Assembly: GCA_913055215.1 (NCBI GenBank)
Contig: CAJXJP010000003.1
Location: forward strand, 1 to 52,458
Source: an uncultured Candidatus Altimarinota bacterium
Lineage (GTDB): Bacteria; Patescibacteriota; Gracilibacteria; BD1-5; UBA6164
DNA length: 52,458 nt
Direction of reading: 5' to 3'
Shown: positions 10,678 to 50,348 of the stretch, one piece after another
Numbering within the stretch: position 1 is the first letter of the stretch
How the letters are laid out: each line of letters begins with the position of its first letter
Notes under the pieces: model-generated
The model's database searches: none
Told to the model about the DNA's origin: nothing
The model's input: only the letters and a program-made list of their open reading frames with translations
Position numbers and translations under genes: made by a program

Positions 10678-10707
10678 TAATGATAACTTATCGTGGAGGA
10701 GAAAGTT

Positions 10708-11247
10708 ATGACAGAGAAAATTGATTTAACGAAACGAGTTATCGTTCCGAAGGGAGTTTGTATTTATTCAAGTACAAATGATCAAGGGAAAATAACAGGG
10801 ACTAATCCTGAGTTTTTAACTTATTCGGGGTATGAATATGACGAGCTAAATGGTCAAGACCATAACATTATTCGTCATGAAGATATGCCTCAGAGTTTGT
10901 TTTATATTCTGTGGACCGAGTTACAAAAAAGCAGAGAACATGTGCCTACTGAAGTAATAGTATTTGTGAAAAACAAAACAAAGTTCGGCGGTTACTACTG
11001 GGTCTTAGCTACTGTAAGTGTTACGAAATATAAACCAAATGGCCAGCCTGCGTTGTATATGTCCAATAGGGTAGGGGTGTATGATGTATCAGATATAAAC
11101 TGGCTTGAGAATGAGTATAAACAGATTAAACTTTGTGAATCTCGTAAACTTAGTGCTAGAGAAATATCGCAACATAAATGTCTTACTATGGCTACTGAAT
11201 TGATTCAAGGGGAAAAATATGCTGAAATTATCAAAAAATACAGATAA
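10708..11247 (+). CDS. Aer-type PAS-domain sensor protein
   Basis: 179 residues. Residues about 10-120 are a PAS domain of the Aer aerotaxis type, with the diagnostic [11 protein letters not shown] (Aer: HNIVRHPDMP) and Y-Y-W-V-L-A (Aer: FYWV-x-A). Family members bind FAD and sense redox or oxygen. There is no membrane segment; the methyl-accepting signalling part is encoded by the next, overlapping gene, so this is a split Aer. A standard-code call would start at GTG 10693, but GGAGGAG six bases before ATG 10708 fixes the start. All ten or so glycines use GGN, none TGA, and GC is higher than nearby. Confidence 0.85.
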
Positions 11248-12496
11248 GTTTAAAAAAATTATTTTTTCGATATTAGTTTTGAGTTTGTTCGTGAATGTAG
11301 GGTATTCTGCGTACCAAACTTTTTGGATTACGGCGCTTTTTGATATTATTTTATTAGGACTTTTATTTTCTTATTATTGTTTTAATAAAAAAGAACAGAA
11401 TGACTTACAAGTTATTCTTAAATCGATTGGAGAAGCTGTGCAGGGGAATTTTCCCCAAAAAATAGGTATTTTAGAATCTACCAAATATACGGAAGTTGCT
11501 GGTGGGGTGAATAATCTTATTTATGGGGCTCAATATTTTACAAAAGAGATCAGTCAATCGGCTTTTGCTTTATCGACAGGTAACTTTAGTAGAACAATTG
11601 GGGTTAATACATTAAATTCTGCATATAGACCGGCAGCAAGTTTGGTTGAAAAAGCTTTTGATGTTATGAAAAAAAGCCTAAAAGAAGCTGAAGTAGCAGA
11701 AAAAAAAGCTATTCTTGCTAAAACCGATCCAAGAAACAATCTGCTTAATGAAAATCTTCCAACTATAAAGGAAGCTCAAGTTAATGCAGAAAATATTTTC
11801 GAGATATCAATGAGTTTGTCAGCTTCAAGTGAGCAGACGAATACTCATGTAAAAGATATACTTGCATATTTGAATTTTTCAAACAATGCAATTGAAGATA
11901 TGAGTGAAGAATTTTTGTCTCTTGAAAAGTCTATTGAACAAGTTTCACAGTTATCAAAAACGATTGAGGAAATTGCAGCTCAAACTAATTTACTTGCACT
12001 TAATGCGGCTATTGAAGCAGCACGAGCAGGAGAATTTGGTAGAGGATTTTCTGTCGTTGCCGATGAAGTACGTGTACTTTCTCAAAGAACACAAAATCAA
12101 GTAGGGAGTATTAATGAGGTAGTTCAAAATATTATCGACCAGACTTCGATTATTAGTGCAATGTTTGAGGGGATTAGTTCAGAGTCAGCTGAGTCAAAAG
12201 ATAAACTTGATGAGGTTTCTGGTAGTCTTGGGCGAGTATTACAACAAGTAGAAACAGTCTCAGTAGCGAGTCAGTCTTTACAATTAACATCAGGAAACGT
12301 TCATAGTTTAATGATGGATTTATCTGTCTTGAATGGAGTATATCGTTCATGTGCTTATGGTGTAAGAATTGATATAGCATTAGATTCGCCATACTTGATC
12401 AAGTATGATGAGCCTATTTCACAATTTAACAAATATATAGAAAAGGGGGAACTGCCAAGTTTAGACTTAGTAGAAAGTTTCCAATTAGTGTCTTAA
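11219..12496 (+). CDS. Methyl-accepting chemotaxis-type signalling protein
   Basis: 425 residues. Two hydrophobic segments near the N-terminus (about 14-50) form a membrane hairpin without a periplasmic domain, as in Aer. A linker and a long coiled coil follow, with the conserved hairpin tip [20 protein letters not shown] at about 248-267 and [12 protein letters not shown] after it. This tip contacts CheA and CheW, neither of which is in the window. The gene overlaps the PAS gene by 29 bases and starts after GGGGAA, so the two products probably act together. About 21 glycine codons, none TGA: likely acquired from a bacterium with the standard code, plausibly a gammaproteobacterial host, or kept TGA-free by selection. 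Confidence 0.9.
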
Positions 12497-14299: not shown

Positions 14300-14571
14300 A
14301 ATAGTTTTGTTAATTTATATATGCTTATATTAAAACATATATTTTAAAAGGAATCAATTTTATTGTATTGAAAAAAATAACTTATAACTAAGTTGTTAGT
14401 GATTAGAGAGATTTGTCACAGTAGGAAATACAGATAAAAAAGGTTTATCCTTTTTTGTCTGATTCATTTGTGAAAGAGTTGACGTTGGAGTTGTATGAAA
14501 TGTGTGAAAAGAACATAGAATTTGGTATATGTTAAAAAGTTTTTCACAAGGAAATTTATAATGGGTTGAAA
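14300..14571. other. Intergenic region at the left edge of the mobile region
   Basis: 272 bases without a convincing gene. It should contain the promoter of the reverse transcriptase gene and perhaps the left end of element A, but I found no copy of the TATGGTAC att core here. Confidence 0.5.
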
Positions 14572-16205
14572 ATGGGAGTTATTCAGTGTATATTATTGTT
14601 AATTTTAATTATTATTAATACTTTTTATGTTATGCGATTAAAAAAAGATGATTTAACATTTGTGCTAGATTGAATTAAGCGCTACGGAGATAGTAATTTA
14701 TTCCCTCGTCCATTTGAGTTAGATTTTATTGATATTAATGAGGTAAAGGTTGACTTAAATAAATGGAATCCTGTATGAGATTTAAGGTACTTAGTTCCTA
14801 AGAATAATTCTTCATTTAGGACGGCGAGTTTATTGGATCCGACAGATATTTTACTATATAATACTTTTCTTTTTAGTTTAATTAAAAATAATGTTGAAAT
14901 ATATAATAAAAATTACGTATATTCGGATATCTTTAAAGTTGATGATGAGAAAGCTCAGTATATAAATCAGAACTATAAATGATTTATGGAAGAAACGTTG
15001 TCGTTAGGTGGGTGGTGTTGATTTATTCTATCTACGGATATTGCTGATTTTTCCCGAGAATATATATGCATGATATTGAAAGAGCATTTTATTCTATGTT
15101 TTGAGCTAATGAGCAAAATATAATCTCTAAATTTCTTAGAGTAAGGAATGTTAATGAATCTATTTCTGTATTGCCAGTAGGTCCTACTGCTTCATGAATT
15201 GTCTCAAATCTTGTTTTACAGGACGTGGATAATTATTTAAAGAGTAAGTGAATAAAATTTATTAGATATGTTGATGATTATCGTTTTTTTGCTGACACAG
15301 AAAACGAAGCCTATGAAATACTATATTTATATTCAGACTATTTACATTCTAGATATAATTTAACTCTTCAAGGTAATAAAACAAAAATATATTCATTTAA
15401 AGACTATAATAATTTGTGTAAAAATAATTTCGAAACCCTTCAGGATTCTGAAATTTATGATATTTTGCACGAAATTAATGATATTGAATTTCAAAAAAAA
15501 TTAGATTTAGCTGAGTCATATGAAGAGCTAGATGATATTATTGAAAAGGAAATTTCAAAAGGAGATCAAGAAAAAATCCTTCATGCTATAAATACAGAGC
15601 TTGTTTCAGAAATAGAAAAAAATCATATTAATGTCAAAAAAATTAAAAAAATACTAAACATATGATATAGGTATAATATTATGTGACTCCACAATATATT
15701 ATTTGATCACAAAATATTAAGGAAAGTATACGTTATAATACCACAAATTTTGAAATATACGAATATAGTTAAGTCAAAAATTCATAGTGAAGATTTCTTG
15801 AAAATTAAATCTATATTATTTGATTTATTAGATAATAAGGAGTTTCATTTAAATAAGATTACTTATTATAAGGTCTGGATACTAGATTTTCTCGAAAAAA
15901 TTTCTGATCATTTAGGAGAGGAGGATAAAAACATGTTAATTAGGTTATATGATAAAGAAAATGATATTTTGGTAAAAAGGTATATTATATTGATTTTATG
16001 AAATTTAAAGGTTGATTTTTGGTTTAGAGAGAAGAAAAAATATTATCTACAACTTTCTGAATGGGAGAGAAGGGCGTTTGTATATAGTTTTTGAAAATGT
16101 AATTTTTCAATTGATGAAAGGAGAGCATTTGATAAAAATGTAAAAGATACACTGTGAATATATGATTATTTTAGAAAAGATTTTTTATTACTATGAAAAC
16201 AATAA
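14572..16205 (+). pseudogene. Defence-type reverse transcriptase, frameshifted
   Basis: About 544 residues when one base is restored. The N-terminal part has the FPRPFE stretch and VPKNNSSFR typical of Abi/DRT ('unknown group') reverse transcriptases. Motif A is STDIADF-(Y)-PRIY, interrupted: adding one base between 15052 and 15053 (TTT T-C CCG) restores it. Then PVGPTASGIVSN and the catalytic YVDD at 15267-15278. The C-terminal 300 residues are helical without a maturase or HNH domain, so it is not a group II intron protein. ATG 14572 or 14632 is the start. The stop overlaps the start of the recombinase remnant by 13 bases. Either a true frameshift, a sequencing error, or programmed slippage at the T-run. 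Confidence 0.75.
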
Positions 16206-16487
16206 TATATTACAGAAAATCAACTGATAGGGATGATAAGCAGGCGAATAGTTTGGAGTATTAATTGAATAATTGTGAAAATTAATCCTTGTAAAACAAA
16301 AAAGAGGGCTGAACTTTTTATAGACAGCAAAAAAGACCTTCAAATAGAGGAAAGTCCACTATTTAAAAGTCTTAAATATTTAAATTTTTCATATGGTACT
16401 CTTGAAGGGTTTGATGTTAGAACTTATAAGGAGTATTTGAAAAAAATAAATTTACGAATGCTTATAGAATTAAATAATCAATCATAA
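16193..16487 (+). pseudogene. Remnant of a large serine recombinase (element A)
   Basis: The first 70 bases match the start of the intact recombinase at 24313 (MKTIIYYRKSTDRDDKQANSLE; about 78% identical in DNA, mostly silent changes), then a CAA-to-TAA change stops it. Almost the whole body is deleted; from 16311 the sequence is the C-terminal end of the same protein (FIDSKKDLQIEESPLFKSLK). After the att core it reads on for 31 residues to TAA at 16485, through what I take to be the left end of element B. The gene is dead but its 3' end is preserved. Confidence 0.85.
16311..16399 (+). repeat. Direct repeat with att core, left copy
   Basis: 89 bases matching 25678-25766 at about 82 of 89 positions and ending in the core TATGGTAC. 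It encodes the C-terminal end of the recombinase. I interpret it as the old right att arm of element A, now the left boundary of element B. Confidence 0.8.
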
Positions 16488-16573
16488 AATAAAAAAAGTC
16501 TGAAAATTAATGTTGAGTTAATATCATTTCAGTATACTGTATGTAATTTTAATTGTATAAGTAGCAAAAACTG

Positions 16574-18457
16574 ATGGAAGATACGCATTATTTAGAATTT
16601 ATAGATGAAAAATTTAAATTTTTTCCTTCATGCTATGTCTTTCAAAAAAAAGCAACTATTGATTTAAAAAAATTTTTTACAGGATTAATCTTAGATTGAC
16701 TTATTTGTTATGACTATTCCTCTTGAAAGAAAAAAGTAAAAAATAAGAAAAACATTAAAAGTCATGTTGTGAATATTCAATGAGAAGAAATAAAATTTAT
16801 TTATGAGTTTTTTAAATATGATAGTTTCCCTTATTTTGTTAGTAGATTAGATTCAAATTTTTTATGAGAATATAAAGAACAAGATCATTGATATTTATTG
16901 ATAATTGAAATTTGAGAGTTTATTTTTATTCAAAAAACATGATGAATTAGACAGATATCGCCTACTATTAAAAAAACATTTAATCTGATTAATTTAAATA
17001 GTACTTATAGGGATAGGTTAATTTATTGATATGATAAATTAGAAAAGTTGAAAATTCATAATGTAAACAGTAATACTAATGAAATTGATATTATAGAAAT
17101 AGAGGCAGAAGATTTAACTAAAGTGGTTTCTTCATGAGAATATGCTAATTTTTTTGCAAGAAATATTAAGGCAGGGAATTCAACTAATAAAAAAACGTTG
17201 ACTATTAACGCGGGTACATCTAGATTACAATTTGCCAATCAGGAAATTGAGGCTAATTTAACTTCTTTAATAGGTTTTTATGTGATGCATAAAATAATTC
17301 TAGATAAAGCTATTGAGGCTACTGAATTATTGGAAAATAAAATTATTAAATTTAATGATAATTTAGCAAAAAATACTGATAAATTACCTATGCAATCACC
17401 AAAATATTTGAGTTTTATGTTATCTGAAATTGAGCAAGAATTTATTGAAGAAGATAACTTTTTTGATATTCAAAATATTTTAGATAAATTTAAATGATTT
17501 CATTTATTAAAGAAAAGTTGAGAAGATATTATAACAGATGATATTGAAGTAGGTAAATATATAAATTTATGAGAAGGTTATATTGTAGATGATTATATGG
17601 TAAAAATATCATATACTTCAACTGATGAAATTTACAGAGAATTATTCCGCGTGATACAAGATAAGCAATTATTTAAACTATCTTATGATTTGGATAAAAT
17701 ATCTTATATAAATGGATCATTTTATGAAAATAGAAATTATGAAATCCCTTATATTGATGTGATTTTAAACTCGATTTACTCATTTATTCCTTCTTCAGTA
17801 ACTAGTGAAAAATGATTATACTCAGAATATGTAGTTGGTTCTAATAGTAATTGGTCAGTTAATAGTATTTTTTATCATGTTGAGGATATATTAAAAAATG
17901 ATAGTGATATTAAATATTTATTTTGCGGAGATATGTGAAAAGAAATAGCTGATCATATCTCATTTAGTTCTGATACAATTACTTTCATACATTGAAAAGC
18001 AACAGGTAGAAATAGGTCAACTAAGTCAGTATCTGATTTTTCTGACTTAATTGGACAAGTTATAAAAAATATGTGATTTTTACCTTTAGATAAGGATGTG
18101 ACAAAAGAGGAAATTATAAAGTTAGCATCTGCGAGTTTGAGTCCTGCAATTACTAAATGAAAACCAATATGAGTATCTTCTGATAAAAATGTAACTAAAA
18201 AATCATTAATAAAATGAAATGAAGTAGATTTTGAAAATTTCCTTGATAATTTTTTGAATGGCCAACAATTTTTTAAGAAAAGAGTTGTTTTGGCAGTAGA
18301 TTTTTTTGATAAAAATTTTATAGAAAATAGATTGAATAAATATAAAGTAGATCCTTGATCGTTAGATTTTTTAGATATTCAATTTATTAATACACTATGA
18401 ATGTTAGAATCTATGTGTAAAAGAAGATGAACTATATTTGAGATATGGTGCAAATAA
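16574..18457 (+). CDS. Large protein of unknown function, possible defence component
   Basis: 627 residues under code 25, soluble by its composition, with no signal peptide. I recognise no family. Charged helices alternate with stretches of beta character; a region around residues 210-300 is helical (LTSLIGFYVMHKIILDKAI). It is the first gene of element B and is followed 164 bases later by a PD-(D/E)XK nuclease, so the two may form a restriction-like or abortive system in which this protein is the sensor or specificity subunit. That is inference from position only. Many TGA glycines, no Shine-Dalgarno site. Confidence 0.65.
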
Positions 18458-18580
18458 TAACTATATTAATAATGTAATGAAGAAGATAGGATAAAGATTT
18501 AGAGTTCTTTTTCTATTTTATTATAAAACATATTTAAAGGTAATCAATTTAAATTAATTTCATAATGGCTTTAAATAGAG

Positions 18581-18586
18581 TATAAT
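18581..18586 (+). promoter_or_regulatory. -10 box upstream of the nuclease gene
   Basis: A perfect TATAAT 35 bases before ATG 18622. The -35 region is weak. It suggests the nuclease can be transcribed separately from the gene before it. Confidence 0.4.
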
Positions 18587-18621
18587 ACATGTATATATTG
18601 TATAAATAAATTGTACTAAAT

Positions 18622-19419
18622 ATGGATATCAGAAAAATATCTTTACATCTTTCGGGTAAGGTATCACCATATGAGAAATATTCTAGATTAGAATTTTTTG
18701 ATTATTTGGAGGATATTTTTGGTTACAATTTGGATAAATTAGATTTTTATTGGAAGCAAGCAAAAGAATTTGAAGAAGAGTTTTATTATTTAGTATTTGA
18801 TAAACTATATAGTAAATCAAAAAAAAACGAATGAGAAAAAGTAAAATTAGAAAAATTATTATTGGAATTAGATTTGCCTAGTGATATTTATAGCGCGAAA
18901 GAATGATTTAATTATAAAGTACTTAAAAAAGAATTTGATGAGATAATTACAAAAAAAACTAGTCAAGATACTTGAGAATCACAATTAAAATGAAAACAAT
19001 TTGAAGTTTTTCTGCAAAAATTATTTAATGAGATTGAATGATTAGAAATAAGCAAAATAAAGGTTGTTGAAGATGAACAAATTGATTTGGTGATTAAGAA
19101 TAATATTAATAAGCCATTTTGGTTAAATCTTAAAAGTCCAGTTATTATTTGAGAAGCTAAAAATCGGTCTAAAAAGACTAATACAGAGGTTATTAATACA
19201 TTAAGAGGGAAAAGTGTATGACATACTAATTTATCAAAAATAGGCATTGTAATTGCTATGAATTGATTTACGAAAGCAGTTGATTCAAATCTATTAAGAG
19301 ATTGAGCATCTGAAAGGGTTATAGTGGCTATTACTTGAGATGATATAAATAATTTACTAGTTACTGAATCTAACCCGATTGAATGGTTAGAGTGATTGAT
19401 TATGAAAAGTTTTGTTTAA
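18622..19419 (+). CDS. PD-(D/E)XK restriction endonuclease-like protein (Mrr-type fold)
   Basis: 265 residues. A helical N-terminal half (about 1-115) precedes a nuclease core: K-x-F-E-V-F-L-Q-K-L-F at about 129-140, D in EDEQIDLVI, then the catalytic strand PVIIGEAKNR (E-x-K) and a following helix with NTLRGK. The order helix, D, E-x-K, helix matches the Mrr/restriction endonuclease fold. Family members cut foreign DNA; the target is not readable. Neighbour of the unknown 627-residue protein; together they are the element's likely defence cargo. Confidence 0.7.
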
Positions 19420-19507
19420 CTAAAAAGGCCATTAAGGGTCTTTTTAATTTGTCATAAGATTAACTATCTTATATAATATGATTAATATGGATTTTAATAT
19501 AAAATAA

Positions 19508-20467
19508 ATGCAACTATCACAAAAACTAAAAACAATAGAAAATCTTTTATTGTGGAATAAGGCAAAAGAATTTTCATATTTTAAAAGAGTTAATTTAATT
19601 GGAGAAGACAAAGTATCATATAAGTATTATTCTGTTATAAAACAAAAATATGTTTGATTTGATGTTCTAGATGGAGTAGAAATTTATAATCAATTATGAT
19701 ATGGCTTTACTTTAAAAAATATATTTTATCAATTTTTTAAAGTAAATTTATATAAAAAATCTTTTATGAATGAATCTAGATGGGGGGAGATTAATAATAG
19801 AGATACTGTATTAGCTATATTTAATGTGTCTGATTCAAAAATATTTATAAACTCTTTATTAGATTTTATAGATTCTGAAAAAGAAAATTTAACAATATTG
19901 AAAAAAAATGAACAAGAAAAAGAAGTTAGAAATGAGATTGATAAGTTAAAAGGGAAGTTTGAGATGCTCAAACTCCCTTTAACGTTCAATCTTTCTAATT
20001 TCTTGTCTTCATATGTTCAATATTATAAAACGTTAAAATCTTTAGAGCGGCAGTATAAAATTTTAGATATTCAAATTTATCAATGAAAAATAACTTTTGT
20101 ATTATCTGAAAATATATCTAACAAAAAAGAAGTTATATTTAAGGAGAATGAATTATTTATAGATTCGCAAAAAGTGTTTTTCCAAAGAAAAAATACAATG
20201 ATTTTTGAAATGATAAAACTTATATTTTTATATTTACAGGAAAATGAAACTAATAAAGTTCAGTTTTTTGAATTAGAAGAATTTTATCAGAATAATAAAA
20301 ACTTGTACCCTCAAATCTCAGCCGTGAAGTTTAATTATGACTATTTACGTAAATCTATTGAAACAAAAACGAAGGAAATCGAAAGAAAACATCACTTAGA
20401 TAAAAATTTTCTCGGAATTGATATATCTTGAATTAGATGCCAATACTTAGAACCGGAAAACAAGTAA
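19508..20467 (+). CDS. Protein of unknown function with C-terminal winged-helix-like region
   Basis: 319 residues. The central part (about 125-195) is coiled coil. The C-terminal 85 residues resemble an OmpR-type winged helix in order and spacing: a helix IKLIFLYLQENE, then FFELEEFY, then YDYLRKSIETKTKEIERK and a closing LGIDISGIRCQYL hairpin. No receiver domain is present. Could be a transcriptional regulator or initiator accessory of the element; the family is not recognised. A perfect-looking hairpin lies inside the gene at 19949-19980. Confidence 0.5.
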
Positions 20468-20506
20468 AATTCCGTTATTTCCGTTATATTTTCCCATAAA
20501 ATATGT

Positions 20507-20549
20507 AATCTCGCTTTTGACAGTTTATCTGTCTGAGTGAGATTTTTTT
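20507..20549 (+). terminator. Terminator before the Rep gene
   Basis: Two-level stem: AATCTC...GAGATT outside and GACAG / CTGTC inside with loop TTTAT, followed by seven T. It ends the first transcript of element B. Confidence 0.75.
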
Positions 20550-20578
20550 CTTGCAAAAATTCAATCGATTGAATTTAG

Positions 20579-20637
20579 TCCCACACATTAATGTGGGAGC
20601 AGTTAACTTAAAACAGTACTATTTTTATATCAGTACT
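20579..20637 (+). other. Hairpin and direct repeats upstream of Rep, possible origin
   Basis: Hairpin TCCCACA / TGTGGGA with loop CATTAA (20579-20598), then CAGTACT at 20614 and again at 20631, then ACTCGCGAGT, a palindrome. Such hairpins next to repeats upstream of a Rep gene are typical of rolling-circle origins. The assignment is inferred from context. Confidence 0.4.
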
Positions 20638-20660
20638 CGCGAGTCATTATTTAATTAATA

Positions 20661-21713
20661 ATGAAAAATTTTAATATTGAGAATAGAGTCCACCATTTTG
20701 GATTAGACCATTTAGAAGTTTTTTGAACTTTCAAAAATGAAGAGGTATTTGATGCATTAGATTTTGATAACTCTAATTATTCTGAATTAGATGAATACAA
20801 AATTACTAAAAATGAAGTTCCGAAATATAAGTATAAAATTATTTTCACTAAAGGAGAGTATAGTTTATTTGCTTATTATAAATGAATTCCTAAAAGTGAA
20901 AAACAACCAGTAGGAACAAGGGATTATATAACTGTATATTCTACAGCTTTTAAGTTATTAGAATATGAAGAAATACTATGATTTTTAGAGTGGCATATGA
21001 ATTTGAAGCACTGTAGGAGGTTTGATATTTGTATGGACTTGAAAATTGAAATAGACGAGCTTTTAAGTGATTATTTTGATAGTTATAAAACCGGGAGAGA
21101 TTATAGGAAGTCGTGAAAGACAGAAACGAGATATTATTGAGAAATGATGAACTCGAAGAATAAGAGACAACTTATAAGGGTCTATAATAAAATAACTGAT
21201 ATTTTGGTGAAAAAGAAAATTGCTTTATATCAAGACTATTTAGTTGAGGATAATATTACTAGAATTGAACTTGAAATTAGACCAGAATTAGCAAAAGTAA
21301 GAAATTATAGAGATGTTTTTGACAATGCATTACTTATAGGAATATTTAAAAATTATTTATATAAATATTCAAAAGTTTTTGAACAAATACAAGGCGAAAG
21401 AATTACCTTATTTAATGCTAAAAAAATAAAGCTAAATGCAGAAGATTATCAAAGTCTCTATTATAAGACACAAAAAAAAGCCATGTTTGTGGCTTATGCT
21501 AGAACAGCTTATAATCTTTGATTCTGCCCAGTCAGGGTATTGATAGCAGAAGGATATATTCAAGAGAAAACTAAAGACCTTTTATGAGTAAGAATATTAG
21601 AGGATATTATCAGAAAAGAAATAGATGCGAGGATTCAGGCAAGAGAAAATGATTATATCAAAAATAATATTGATGAAATACTTGGTAACTATTACAAGTA
21701 TGGAAAATTGTAA
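20661..21713 (+). CDS. Rep_trans-like replication initiation factor
   Basis: 350 residues. The pattern fits the Rep_trans family (rolling-circle initiators and MobT-like relaxases): an N-terminal strand region, CRRFDICMDLKIEI (about 113-126) where the family has R-x-D-x-x-x-D, then VYNKITDIL and ITRIELEIRPEL, matching 'Y-x-K ... R-x-E-x-x-x-R'. A catalytic Tyr is likely in this second block but I cannot fix which. It would let the excised circle replicate or be nicked. A small gene overlaps its end. Confidence is moderate because similarity is only at motif level. Confidence 0.55.
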
Positions 21714-21828
21714 ATTAGATTTTGAAAAATATAAGGAAAGGCTTGAAAAAGTCTTTCCAACTTATACAGAAGAAGAGTTAAGAGAGTATTTTATTTATTA
21801 TGTAGGATATTTGGAGTTGTTGATTTAA
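21700..21828 (+). CDS. Small protein translationally coupled to Rep (42 aa)
   Basis: 42 residues, acidic, helical, starting MENCKLDFEKYKERLEK. The start codon lies inside the last codons of the Rep gene (14-base overlap), which suggests coupled translation. No TGA. No family recognised; a copy-number or relaxosome accessory role would fit but is a guess. Confidence 0.45.
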   Translation: MENCKLDFEKYKERLEKVFPTYTEEELREYFIYYVGYLELLI

Positions 21829-21845
21829 AAAAATATGAATAATAA

Positions 21846-21894
21846 CGAAATATAAGATTTCGCATTGATTAAATGTTAAAAATGAGTTTTTAAC
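21846..21894. promoter_or_regulatory. Two inverted repeats upstream of lexA
   Basis: CGAAAT-ATAAG-ATTTCG (21846-21862) and GTTAAAAA-TGAG-TTTTTAAC (21875-21894), both perfect, in the 164-base gap before lexA. Either could be a repressor site; the second could also end the Rep transcript. Confidence 0.4.
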
Positions 21895-21992
21895 AAAATC
21901 ATTCAAATTTGTTGTATAAGTGTATAAAAAAACTTTGACTAACGTAAAAAATACATAATAATTAAAAGTGTTATTAGTAACCACGAAAAGAA

Positions 21993-22619
21993 ATGAGGGG
22001 AAAAGATTTAGATAATAGGGTGTTGAATTATTTAGAATTACTTATAAAGGCAAATAATAAGATATCTGTTAGGTCTATAGCTAAATGATTATGAAAAATA
22101 AATTCTATCAGGTCTATACAGCTGTCATTAACTAGGCTGGAGAAAGCTTGATTAATACTCAAAACACATGAGTGAAAAATAGAATTAATTCAAGATGATT
22201 TTAGTATTAAAGAGAAAGTGAAAATAAAAATAAAAACACAAAATATACCTCTTATTGGTTCAATTGCTTGTGGTTGACCTACATTAGCAGAAGAAAATAT
22301 AGAGAGTTATATGTCTATATCTCAAGATTTTTTAAAAGATAGAAAAGAATATTTTTTATTAAGAACTACTTGAGATAGTATGGATAAAAAGTGAATAAAT
22401 CCTTGAGATGTAGTATTAATTAGACAAGAAAACACTGCTAAAAATTGAGATATAGTTGTAGCTTTGATTGATGATAGTGCCACATTAAAAGAGATTAAAA
22501 TGGAATATTGAATTGTAAAATTAATTCCTCATTCTACAAATCCTGATAATAGGGTAATTGTAGTTACGGAAGATTTAATTATTCAATGAATATATGAAAG
22601 AAACTTAGGTCAATTTTAA
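21993..22619 (+). CDS. lexA: LexA-like autocleaving repressor
   Basis: 208 residues. A winged helix (about 10-60: VRSIAKGLG, then RSIQLSLTRLEKAGLI) is followed by a linker and the S24 peptidase domain. The cleavage region reads IACG-G-PTLAEENIE; the catalytic Ser is in TTGDSM and the catalytic Lys in ATLKEIK, matching LexA VTVKRxK. In response to RecA filaments LexA cleaves itself. Here it probably keeps the element's excision and cargo genes silent until DNA damage. The linker glycine after Cys-Gly and that of TTGDSM are TGA. Confidence 0.88.
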
Positions 22620-22636
22620 TTAATAAAAAAATTATC

Positions 22637-22915
22637 ATGAGTACATTTTTGATAAGTTACGATTTATGATGACCAGAAAATTCATCAGATTATAAAAAAG
22701 TTTCTGATTATATAAAATCTTTATGAGCATGGGCTAAACCATTAGAATCATTTTATTTTGTTATATCTTCAAAAACTACGGCAGAAATAAGGGATGAATT
22801 TATAAAGATTACAGATAAAAATGATAAGGTAGTGGTAATGGACGTTGATTGAGATGACTGGGCTACTTTTAATATTTCAGAAGGAGTTGCAGGTTGGATG
22901 CAAGATAATATTTAA
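22637..22915 (+). CDS. Cas2-fold (SinR-like) small protein
   Basis: 92 residues with the ferredoxin-like pattern of stand-alone Cas2/SinR proteins: MSTFLISYDLGGP, then Y-K-K-V-S-D-Y-I-K-S-L-GAWAKPLESFYFVIS, T-A-E-I-R-D-E, then KVVVMDVDGDDWA. No cas1 and no CRISPR array are in the window, so it is not part of an adaptation module. Relatives are VapD- or SinR-like nucleases and regulators. It sits between lexA and a membrane coiled-coil gene in one operon. Confidence 0.7.
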
Positions 22916-22930
22916 TTAAAAATCAGTATT

Positions 22931-24313
22931 ATGAGTAATGAATATGATTGAGAATACGAAAAATTAAAAAAGGAACTAGATAAAATCAGATTAGATTATA
23001 ATAGAGCTAAGAGATTATTATGAAATGTTGAAATTTTTTGAATTTGAGAATTTGCTAATAAGTATAAGGATTGGCAAAAATTACTTGAAGATGAAGAATC
23101 ATGAGTTGATGCCGTTCTAAATCAAATGACAGAATCAAAAGATGAGATTATTAGGCAAGAGTGAATATCAAAGAAGCTAGTAGATGAAATTAAAGATAAT
23201 CTCATATCTGTTAAGGAAAATATTAGTGATATGCAAACATCTTATGAAAAGTTTTTGCAAATACAATGAAAAATAGAATGAGCAGACTCAAATATTTCGA
23301 ATTTATTAGATAATTCGAAACAACTTAAAAATGATATTGATAAAGTCAAAGAACAATCTGAATTTATACTTAATAACATTAAAGAACTATTTTCAACAGC
23401 ACAAGAGCAAATTAAAAATATGCAGGAAGCATACCAACGTTTTTTAGAAATTAGATGAAAAATAGAAGATGAAAAAACAGGTTTATCAGCAATTTTTGAT
23501 AATGTAAATACTTTATATAAAAAATCACAATGATTATACAGTGAATTACAAGGTTTTAGGGATGAAGGAAATAAATTATTAGAAAATATTAAAGATAATA
23601 AGAATAAATCTGATTCTATTAGGTCTAGAATTTCTGATGTTTTTGATGAATCAAAAAAAATTAGTGATGCAAAAATTGAAGAAATTAAAAAAGTTGCTTC
23701 ATTAATTACTGATACTTGATTTGCAAATTCTTTTCATAAACAAGCAAAAAAATTAGATAAATCAAGGATGTTTTGGGGGGTTGTGATAATTTGAACAACG
23801 TTTTGATTGGTGTATGTTTTGTTTTGGTTGTTTGTGTTTCAGGATTATAAAACGTGAGAGAAAATGCTATTAGATTTAAATATATCAGCAGTCTTTTATA
23901 GATTAAGTCTTACATCACCATTTCTATTTTTAATATGATTTGCAGTTAATCAATATTGAAGAGATACAAAATTAAATGACAAATATGAATTCAAAGCAGC
24001 AACTGCTAGTGCTATTTCACATCATATTGACTTTTTAAAAAAAGAGTTTCCGAAAAGTAATGATATTATTCTTGATTTTGCAAAAGATACATTTTCAAAA
24101 ATATATAAAGAACCATATAAAGATGATGTTGATATTAAGAAAATAGAAGATTTAAAAAAGCAAATTGAGGAAATAAAAAATAATAATAAGAACGATGATA
24201 AAATAATGAATATTGATAAAATTCTTAAATCTTCTAAAGAATTAAAGGAATTATTTCCTGATAATGATAACTTAAAGGAATTATTAAGTATATTAAATTC
24301 TATAATTAAATAA
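22931..24313 (+). CDS. Coiled-coil membrane protein, element cargo
   Basis: 460 residues. Residues about 1-270 are almost continuous coiled coil, followed by two membrane helices (about 278-300 and 320-342) and a charged cytoplasmic C-terminus with more coiled coil. Such coiled-coil plus membrane-hairpin proteins occur among phage defence effectors, but no catalytic domain is visible. Its stop overlaps the recombinase start (TAATG), the same arrangement as the reverse transcriptase in element A, so it occupies the cargo slot before the recombinase. Confidence 0.6.
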
Positions 24314-25908
24314 TGAAAACAATAATTTACTACCGTAAATCAACTGATAGAGATGATAAACAAGCAAATTCGTTAGAACACCAACTAGCGAATTGTTTGA
24401 AGGTGGTTGAAAAATATAATCTTGAAGTAGTTAAACAAATAGGGGAAAGTAAAAGTGCAAAAACTGAATTTACGAGACCTTGATTTAATGAACTGATAGA
24501 ATTATGTAAAAAATGAACGGTAGATTATATTGTTATTGATGAGCCAAAAAGACTATCAAGAAATAATATAGATACTTCAAGAATTATTGATTTATTAGAT
24601 AAAAAATTAATCAAAGGGATTTTGTGAAGTTCGAGAGAATATAGAGCTGATAATTCAAGAGATAAATTTCTATTACAATTGGATTTGTCATTATCTAAAA
24701 TGGATAATGAAGACAGAAGTAAAGATGTAAAAGATAAAATGGAAAGTTGTATTAATAATACAAAGAGATTTTTATGAAAAGCCCCTTTTGGTTATAAGAA
24801 TGTTACGATTAAAAAATGACATAAAGAAATTCATATAGATAAAAAACAAGCAAAAATAGTTGCTGAAATTTTTGATTTAAGGATTCAAAACAAAGCATTC
24901 ACTACCATTGCTAATATTATCAGAGAAAAGCACGGAGAATATATTTGAATGAGTATTAGAAGTAGTAGAATACAAGATGTAGTGAATAAAAAATTCTATT
25001 ATTGAACATTTACTTGGAATTGAAAAGAAATTGAATGAAGTCATAAACCAATTATTACAAAAGAGGTATATGATAAAGCACAAAGTGTTGGAAAATGAAT
25101 ATATCAAAATATCGCAACATTAGAAAAGCTACCTAGAAAGCATAAAGCATTTCATTTTAAATGATTCATTAAGGATGAGTCATGAATCTTGTTGAGTTCA
25201 TATGTGCAAAAATGACATACTTACTATATGACTCAACCACGTAGTACTCATAAGGTGAATATTAATGAACAAAAGATATTTTTGAAATTTGGAGATTTAA
25301 TAAAAGACCTTGATTATAAAAATAAAGATTTGTTAGATATTCAAAAAGATATGGTTTTAGAATTATTATCTAAAGATGAAGCAAATACCAAAAATGATAT
25401 TGAGATATATAAAAAAGATATTCAAAAACTAGAAAAGAAACAAGAGGATTTAGTTGATATGAAATTAGATTGAAAAGTAAATGAAGAGATATACTTAAGA
25501 AAAAATAATCAATATTCAGAGGAAATCACGAGAATAAAAGAGAGGATGTCTCAATGAAAAAATGATAATTTTGAAGAGAAGACCCTAAAATTGTTCGAAC
25601 TCTTAGAAAATCATTATACAAGCTATAAAAGTGTAAATGATGAACAAAAAGCAGAGTTAATTAAAAAGTACTTGTTCGAACTTTTTATAGACCATAAAAA
25701 AGACCTTCAAATAGAGGAAAGTCCACTATTTAAAAGTCTTAAATATTTACATTTTCATTATGGTACACCCGGCAGGGATCGAACCCACGCTAACCAAGGT
25801 CCGCGGCCTTGTGCTCTTCCACTGAGCTACGGGTGCACAATGTGTACTAGTATTGTATGTAATTTTTTGAATAATCAAGTGAAAAAACGATTAAACTTAT
25901 TTTCATAA
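24313..25908 (+). CDS. Large serine recombinase (integrase of element B)
   Basis: 531 residues in the integrated state. The N-terminal resolvase domain starts IIYYRKSTDRDD with catalytic Ser10; IVIDEPKRLSRNN and the long helix follow. The recombinase domain contains GKAPFGYKN (about 156-164). The usual zinc ribbon is present in outline (FHFKGFIKDESGILLSS) but its cysteines are gone. A coiled coil (about 375-440) precedes the C-terminus. The att core TATGGTAC (25759-25766) is in frame in the gene, so the last 47 residues are read from the tRNA antisense strand and beyond. In the excised circle the tail would be the one seen at 16400-16487. Confidence 0.9.
25678..25766 (+). repeat. Direct repeat with att core, right copy
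   Basis: Matches 16311-16399. The terminal TATGGTAC includes the TGGT that is the complement of the tRNA discriminator base plus CCA. Right end of element B. Confidence 0.8.
25761..25836 (-). tRNA. tRNA, anticodon GCG by position (Arg)
   Basis: A 76-base cloverleaf: acceptor GCACCCG pairs with CGGGTGT (one G-U), D arm GCTC/GAGC, anticodon stem CAAGG/CCTTG with loop CCGCGGA, T arm GTGGG/CCTGC with TTCGATC, discriminator A and encoded CCA. By position the anticodon is GCG at 25802-25804, reading CGC/CGU as Arg; A20 and C35 agree with arginine identity. C33 in place of U33 is unusual. Its CCA end is the att site of element B. A weak promoter (TTGATT, 15 bases, TACAAT) lies to its right. Confidence 0.8.
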
Positions 25909-48842: not shown

Positions 48843-49055
48843 ATGAGAAAAAATATTATACAAAAAGTTAATATATTTTAAACAAAAACTAAAATAAGTC
48901 AACACTCTAAGTTTAGTTAATATTTATATGTTTTATTATATAATGTAACCTTAAAAAATTCTTGAAAAGAAAATTTGAAATCGTCAACAAAAAAAAGAAG
49001 ATAATTAAAAAAAAATACGTATAATATAGAAAAATATATGTTTTATGAAAATAAT
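48843..49055. other. Divergent promoter region
   Basis: 213 bases without a gene between the J-like gene (leftward) and the pilin gene (rightward). Very AT-rich with TATAAT-like boxes in both directions; no strong hairpin seen. Confidence 0.5.
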
Positions 49056-50348
49056 ATGAAATTACACACAAAGCTTTGATTCACTTTTGTAGAATTAATG
49101 GTAATTGTTTCGGTCTTAGCAATTTTATGAACAGTAGGTTTTATTAGCTTTTGAAAATATCTTACAAATGCTAGAGATAGCGCAAGGGTTGCTCAATTGT
49201 CGGAAATTTCAGATGGATTAAAAATTCTAAGCTTAGAAAAAACTCTTCCAAAACCTGACGAAGCAATAACTATCAATTATTGACCAGATGCTGTTTTTTA
49301 CCAATGAAAAACCTGAAATGATTTACAAGAGTATACCGAATTCACAAATAAAATGATTGATCCAAAGTCAGGATTAGAATATACATATATTAGAAATAAG
49401 CGTGGAAATCATTTTCAAATAGCGGCATTTTTAGAGGGGAGAGAAGCTGTATGAGAAAGGGTTGAACTTTTAGATGATGCTACAGCCGCGTCAAACTATA
49501 TAGGAAAATATCCGTATTTAGTCTGAAAAAACTTAGGACTTATTGTCTGATCAGGTTCATATAATCATGTGCCTATCGAGCAAGTAGAAGCGTACCAAGC
49601 TAAAAAAAATATAGATTTATTGACAGAAACTGATTCATTTAAGATTTATTTGGGAAACACTGACGTAATAGAGTGAATTTGATCAGAATTATCTGAATAT
49701 AATCCACGTGCCAATTGTAAAAGAATTCAAGAAAGCACAGGGACAAATAAGTCAGGAGAATTTTCGATTGATCCGGAAGGAAATTGAACTTTTAATTCAG
49801 TGTATTGTGATATGGAAACTGACGGATGAGGATGGACCGTAACAACTATGTTGGCAGATACTACAACAGGAAATTTATTTTCTGAAACTCATGTAAATTC
49901 ATCAAATTTCATAAAAAGTGTAAAGAAAAATATAACTACACAAGGAAAACTGAGTAATGTTTGGAAAAATAATTCGAATAAAGATATTTTATTACAATGT
50001 TTTTCAGCAGACAATGAGTTAGCTTGATATAAAATACCATTTATAATTTATGATTTTCCAGGAGCTGAGAAATGAAACTTAACACAAGATGATAAGGCGG
50101 GAAAAGAATTTTCTTCTCTTAATCTCATCGCTTTATGGTCAGGTCACAAAATTAGGCTTCACAAAAATTATAAAAATAATGAAAGTGAATTAATAGATGT
50201 CTCGAATAAGTTAGTTTTCTGATTAGAATACGATAAAATTTTCGTGAATCCTAATTCTGCAATCAACCCGAATTCACCAGCATATAATGCAGCTTGAAAA
50301 GCCTCGAGTTTTTCAGTAAATAATTACTGTATTTCAGCAATTCGTTAA
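49056..50348 (+). CDS. Type IV prepilin-like protein with fibrinogen-like GGGW domain
   Basis: 430 residues. A short basic leader MKLHTKLG is followed by FTFVELMVIVSVLAILGTVG: the G^F prepilin peptidase site, Glu at +5 and the hydrophobic assembly helix. After a pilin-like stalk (to about 220) comes a fibrinogen-related domain: ANCKRIQES, SGEFSIDPEGNGTFNSVYCDMETDG and then GGW-T-V; the middle Gly of GGGW is TGA. These domains bind acetylated sugars or host glycans, so this is probably a minor pilin adhesin at a pilus tip. An in-frame ATG at 49038 gives a longer leader; 49056 is preferred because it gives a standard one. Confidence 0.85.

Follow-up and report, generated by a model that had tools for sequence, protein, structure and literature searches.

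A prepilin-like gene with a GGGW/fibrinogen-like module in a member of the Gracilibacteria: a probable pilus adhesin from an expanded gene family

The window analysed here is the whole stretch of 52,458 nucleotides from contig CAJXJP010000003.1 (assembly GCA_913055215.1) of an uncultured Candidatus Altimarinota bacterium of the Gracilibacteria, which is ultra-small and probably host-dependent. Near its end lies a gene for a modular prepilin (Table 1). The frame is open under NCBI translation table 25, in which TGA encodes glycine, and contains 17 TGA codons, and no open reading frame spans the locus under table 11. TGA codon 258, within GGGW, stands opposite glycine in 31 of 31 table-11 homologues; codes other than TGA=Gly were rejected because this codon aligns with an invariant glycine. 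The genes on both sides lie on the opposite strand, and the prepilin gene is therefore probably transcribed alone. When the neighbourhoods of orthologues were compared, no conserved gene context was found around them.

Table 1. Features of the modular prepilin gene and its flanks, in window coordinates.
Feature	Coordinates	Strand	Basis or remark
Possible promoter TTAATA-16-TATAAT, 10/12	48917..48944	+	weak: 14 sites found vs 8.7 expected, AT-rich DNA
Alternative upstream ATG for the prepilin CDS	49038	+	
CDS, modular prepilin with GGGW/fibrinogen-like module, 430 aa	49056..50348	+	code 25
Prepilin leader peptide MKLHTKLG, predicted cleavage G8^F9	49056..49079	+	sequence, homology with pilins
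Hydrophobic N-terminal helix, residues 9-36, Glu13 (= position 5 after cleavage)	49080..49163	+	sequence; AF2 helix 11-36
Pilin core, residues 37-219, lineage-conserved R40 D41, Q83 G84, D102, Y111, E127, G157	49164..49712	+	alignments
GGGW/fibrinogen-like module, residues 220-430	49713..50345	+	NF040941 and PF00147 matches, terminal strand motif
Cys221-Cys251 hairpin, predicted disulphide-stapled joint of pilin and module	49716..49808	+	invariant in orthologues; spacing kept in GGGW pilins
GGGW motif, residues 257-260	49824..49835	+	invariant in alignment
Cys315, predicted second pair with Cys425 (putative pairing)	49998..50000	+	invariant in orthologues
Terminal strand YCISAIR, residues 424-430, closing beta strand of the module	50325..50345	+	motif; AF2 pLDDT 81
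Intrinsic terminator, 15-bp perfect stem and T run, directly 3' of the stop codon	50349..50382	+	

The protein runs from a class III prepilin leader through a pilin core of about 210 aa and the GGGW/fibrinogen-like module to a conserved terminal strand. The N-terminus MKLHTKLG^FTFVELMVIVSVLAILG (MKLHTKLG^FTFVE) has the form of a class III prepilin signal, with a short hydrophilic leader ending in Gly and followed by FT.VE. The hydrophobic helix with Glu5, FTFVELMVIVSVLAILGTVGF, gave PDB matches to geopilin and PilA. The Pfam model N_methyl scored 17.5 bits on the protein itself, just under the cut-off of 21.2, and matched 75 of 79 homologous pilins at E<=0.001. Both the leader motif and these homologues bear out the class III-type start, G^FTFVE, that was read in the original prediction.

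The module was recognised by two profiles, GGGWT_bact (NCBIfam NF040941; 52.9 bits against a cut-off of 30, E=2.7e-14, residues 220-262) and Pfam Fibrinogen_C (PF00147; 30.7 bits against a cut-off of 22, E=3.5e-7), with scores far enough above the cut-offs to speak against a chance match. The motif of subdomain A, C-x~29-YCDM-x4-GGGW, is present, and a disulphide is predicted from it. The whole protein has four cysteines (C221, C251, C315, and C425), each within the module and invariant in an alignment of four orthologues; the domain had been described as rich in cysteines, which holds for their location and overstates their number. The same four full-length orthologues, from other genomes and with 35-39% identity (L062, L063, L064, and L075), carry both halves on one polypeptide and align up to the last residue, so the fusion is not an assembly join. 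A prepilin start and a fibrinogen-related domain in a single polypeptide, as originally claimed, are thus confirmed.

The C-terminal end of the module follows a common pattern. The final residue was R or K in 40 of 40 GGGW pilins, usually within [FYW][VI]R, and R and K together make up 8% of residues; the closing strand of the present protein, SAIR, is a variant of x[FYW][VI]R. The [FYW][VI]R-type ending recurred in GGGW proteins from Myxococcota, Bdellovibrio, and Bacteroidetes and in those encoded on phage-derived contigs. The number of cysteines after the CDM motif was even in 39 of 40 GGGW pilins. Fibrinogen-fold proteins of solved structure (FIBCD1, lamprey serum lectin, XEEL/intelectin, fibrinogen beta, ficolins, and tachylectin-5A) resembled the protein in sequence over about residues 216-270 only, and the remaining ~160 residues of the module had no database matches. 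As the similarity stops at about residue 270, the residues of calcium-dependent or acetyl-group pockets could not be aligned to ficolin or intelectin lectins.

AlphaFold was run on the full-length protein with an alignment of 26 rows and on the module alone with one of 36 rows. Mean pLDDT was about 51-52 in both runs and the full-length model was poor. Confident parts were limited to the start of the pilin helix, subdomain A (pLDDT 83-90), and the last strand (81), and residues 266-420 were mostly below 50. All listed Foldseek matches in the PDB were fibrinogen-fold proteins for both models, with TM-scores of 0.2-0.4, which agrees with the fold first proposed for the domain; the confident model extends only to subdomain A and the last strand. 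No E-value for the module alone passed 0.001, and the fold of the body is therefore supported rather than proven, with ~45 residues and the last strand being demonstrably fibrinogen-like. Residues 220-430 nevertheless likely form one complete fibrinogen-fold domain, because the orthologues align to the end, the cysteines are kept and even in number, and the R/K ending is shared.

A search with the protein gave 42 matching places in the 1.39-Mb genome. The collected ORFs included 34 distinct prepilin-like proteins, several of them cut by contig ends, and the genome has at least 30 prepilin-like genes; all gene counts taken from such searches are lower bounds. One further collected prepilin-like ORF was rejected as an antisense artefact. 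Sixteen GGGW domains were found in the genome, 14 of them within ORFs that begin like a prepilin and two together in a single ORF whose start is lost at a contig end. The gene is therefore one of at least 14 GGGW-pilin genes in the genome, a family overlooked in the original prediction. LamG (E=1e-19), a right-handed beta-helix, and a weak match to CBM were found on further members of this pilin family. Among 79 modular pilins of the lineage, Pfam assigned Fibrinogen_C to 46 (too high a count, since the GGGW model had been used to fetch many of the loci), LamG to five, Lcl_C to three, and FISUMP to two, and propellers, beta-helix, sialidase-N, and CBM to single cases. The alternative modules on the same pilin core are thus mostly binding folds (LamG, Lcl_C, FISUMP, CBM, beta-helix, and propellers).

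Pilus machinery, whose absence would have spoken against the original prediction, is present in the genome. Four strong PilB/T-type ATPases and additional partial ones were found together with four copies of PilC and one A24 prepilin peptidase (PilD). On one contig (C2), a PilB-type ATPase, PilC, a pilin of 248 aa, and a PilT-type ATPase form a cluster, and on another (C8) PilC is followed by three prepilins and a PilX/GspK-like ORF. The latter four genes presumably resemble the H-I-J-K tip-initiating set of a minor-pilin cluster, and the gene roles and names given for both clusters are presumptive. A search of the genome for a secretin found none, which argues against a classical type II secretion system (T2SS) and is in line with a monoderm envelope (PMC6851277, PMC6744442).

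The C-terminal modules of these pilins appear to be exchangeable. On contig C21 (L212:1060-9626), six modular pilin genes stand in tandem; their pilin parts are conserved and their ends unrelated. Adjacent pairs in this array share 59-98% amino acid identity over residues 1-125 and 19-24% from residue 200 on, the latter being close to the level of unrelated sequences. Neighbouring pairs in other genomes behaved similarly, with 90 against 18% (L064) and 76-87 against 24-33% (L148) for the N-terminal and C-terminal parts, respectively. The two genes of the C21 pair 6979/8250 have 100% identical DNA between about codons 10 and 160, and identity drops to background around codon 165-190, just before the Cys-Cys hairpin. 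This pattern suggests that the pilin part was recently copied and joined to different ends, though it may also be an assembly error at a repeat. Several pilin genes (L034-L036) break off at contig ends within the conserved N-terminus, which is what near-identical repeats would lead one to expect.

The Cys-Cys hairpin also precedes ends other than GGGW (L015 and L017), and two short pilins (L213:3646-4443 and L222:5181-5948) stop right after a Cys-x~29-Cys hairpin and look as though they had lost the module or never gained one. Both observations suggest that the hairpin is the joint at which C-terminal ends are swapped, in an exchange that may be continuing. More tentatively, and with somewhat less than even confidence, recombination could feed a combinatorial repertoire, in which near-identical pilin parts are copied between tandem genes, joined through the hairpin to changing lectin ends, and host or prey range is set by the modules carried or expressed.

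Relatives of the protein were found in 45 of 60 related genomes. Within the bacterium's own Gracilibacteria family, 41 of 48 genomes and 19 of 20 genera had the GGGW domain. It was present in 54 of 288 sampled genomes of the class, and a sample across the phylum had it in no more than 4 of the 379 other genomes. Outside the Gracilibacteria, none of the 31 GGGW loci examined from other phyla was fused to a pilin. The pilin-GGGW fusion is therefore, as far as sampled, a speciality of this Gracilibacteria lineage, and other members of the class show it rarely (L092). The original prediction had the lineage right, and close relatives are named Candidatus Gracilibacteria. Some GGGW modules in the same family sit on non-pilin secreted proteins (L098 and L109), so display on a pilus is not essential to the module.

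GGGW domains were also encountered in phage-derived IMG/VR contigs (L224-L229, L231, and L233-L235), mostly at protein ends, where they are possibly receptor-binding tips of tail fibres. Predatory bacteria were frequent among the matches, including Bdellovibrio bacteriovorus kdesi (L179:2140-5043) and many Myxococcota loci, with none of these domains on pilins.

Taken together, the gene probably encodes a modular minor pilin that shows a fibrinogen-lectin-like adhesin to host or prey cells. The prepilin would be exported by Sec and cleaved by the prepilin peptidase (PilD) after Gly8, and the hydrophobic helix would pack into a monoderm type IV pilus, for which a secretin is unneeded. The pilin core would carry the disulphide-closed GGGW module of ~210 residues, whose bulk fits a position at or near the tip of the filament. 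There, the module would bind a ligand (most likely a glycan) on the surface of another bacterial cell, and ATPase-driven extension and retraction would then draw the cells together. With at least 14 genes sharing the same joint and bearing different lectin-like ends, the cell could offer a repertoire of adhesins.

Several lines of evidence favour this adhesin reading, namely the fusion itself, the type IV pilus machinery, the expansion of the family, the binding folds on sister pilins, and the lectin relatives. Most PDB relatives of the module are lectins for glycans or acetyl groups (FIBCD1, ficolins, tachylectin-5A, and intelectins). Some fibrinogen-fold domains bind proteins (angiopoietin and tenascin), so a glycan ligand is not a given. 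The phage-derived contigs that encode GGGW domains were also counted in its favour, as was the precedent of Streptococcus sanguinis. The modular pilins PilB (vWA) and PilC (ConA-like lectin) of that species can be modelled into the filament at its tip alone, have host proteins or glycans as ligands, and promote adhesion (PMC8179133, PMC9934059), and by analogy the GGGW pilin may occupy the tip and bind the host.

The strongest competing explanation, though an unlikely one, is that the protein acts outside a long retractile pilus, either as a surface-anchored adhesin or as a secretion-system pseudopilin, and stays in the membrane or a short pseudopilus. GspG matched 61 of the 79 homologous pilins, 15 large GspG-like proteins were annotated in the relative 28_42_T64 by Sieber et al. 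(PMC6851277), and pilin-like genes far outnumber assembly ATPases. However, the GspG matches mainly reflect the common pilin N-terminus and a DP motif, the PilT-type ATPases and minor-pilin cluster point to true retractile pili, and the search for a secretin, which found none, speaks against a classical T2SS.

It is quite improbable that the GGGW module is a mere structural cap or spacer of the pilus and free of ligand. The hairpins left bare at the C-terminus of the two short pilins would suit such a role, but the module bodies, mostly of 150-200 aa, are highly diverse among paralogues and the body of this protein is conserved in the orthologues of four genomes, as one would expect of a specific binder but not of a neutral cap. 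Slightly less probable again is a minor pilin for DNA uptake (competence), with a module that binds DNA or stabilises the tip. No GGGW/fibrinogen-like domain is known to bind DNA, which counts against it, and a sequence-independent ligand would not call for a large and divergent set of modules. In its favour, ComEC/ComEA and type IV pili have been tied to DNA uptake in CPR bacteria including Vampirococcus (PMC6744442, PMC8080830). An artefact of a wrong genetic code, an assembly join, or a chance motif, which the draft state of the genome (83 contigs) and the N_methyl score under the Pfam cut-off might suggest, has practically no chance of being correct and was ruled out by the glycine opposite TGA258 and by the conservation of the fusion across several genomes, one of them a closed chromosome of 1,343,103 bp.

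The favoured adhesin shares with S. sanguinis PilB and PilC the class III leader, a pilin module with a grafted C-terminal module, and a monoderm type IV pilus. In contrast to these, it bears a GGGW/fibrinogen-like module and is one of 14 GGGW pilins in a 1.4-Mb genome rather than one of two modular pilins. Adhesion or ligand binding has been shown for the two S. sanguinis pilins; the putative adhesin described here comes from uncultivated Gracilibacteria with TGA=Gly. The bacterial GGGWT proteins with YCDxxxxGGGW (NF040941) have the N-terminal subdomain, the cysteine spacing, and the terminal [FYW][VI]R strand in common with the module, but in Myxococcota, Bdellovibrio, Bacteroidetes, and Planctomycetota the domain sat on non-pilins in every locus examined. 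Ficolins, FIBCD1, tachylectin-5A, intelectins/XEEL, and lamprey serum lectin match subdomain A in sequence and structure; the module differs from these lectins in that its body cannot be aligned with theirs by sequence, no calcium or ligand site was found in it, and it is carried on a pilin.

The GspG-like pseudopilins of Gracilibacterium 28_42_T64, from the same lineage (15 copies with a mean of 528 aa), probably belong to the same gene family as the GGGW pilins. Sieber et al. noted "many and potentially diverse pili" in this organism, and the paper neither mentions fibrinogen nor describes fused modules (PMC6851277). Raynaud et al. (2021) report >1,200 modular pilins in 264 architectures, and a fibrinogen-like module is absent from the 15 commonest modules that they show. 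A literature search for fibrinogen-like domains and pilins in Patescibacteria returned no report, nor did one for fibrinogen-like adhesins in Bdellovibrio; coverage was incomplete in both, and novelty is unproven. The modular pilin as a kind and GGGWT_bact as a domain are already known, and what is apparently new, being undescribed in the literature searched, is the large, lineage-specific, and apparently exchangeable set of pilin-GGGW proteins in Gracilibacteria.

Little is known of how CPR bacteria recognise their hosts. Should the modules bind glycans on host surfaces, the list of pilus adhesins could be read directly from the genome. Orthologous modules could then be paired with the hosts found alongside them, and the purified proteins could be assayed with no need to culture the bacterium. 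The fibrinogen/ficolin/intelectin scaffold, a sensor of microbial surfaces in animal immunity, would then extend to bacteria that use it for attachment to microbes.

Other features of the window were also recorded. Positions 14300-25908 hold a reverse transcriptase, an Mrr-type endonuclease, an S24 repressor, and a large serine recombinase beside tRNA-Arg, and are likely an integrated mobile element. The tRNA-Arg gene (25761-25836, minus strand) lies antisense in the 3' end of the large serine recombinase. The reverse transcriptase (RVT_1, YVDD motif; 14566-16205) is split across two overlapping frames, 14566-15123 and 14979-16205, which reflects a frameshift in the gene, an error in sequencing, or a programmed shift. 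At 10693-12496, what appear from their sequence to be a PAS-domain ORF and then a methyl-accepting-chemotaxis-like ORF occur in this small genome.
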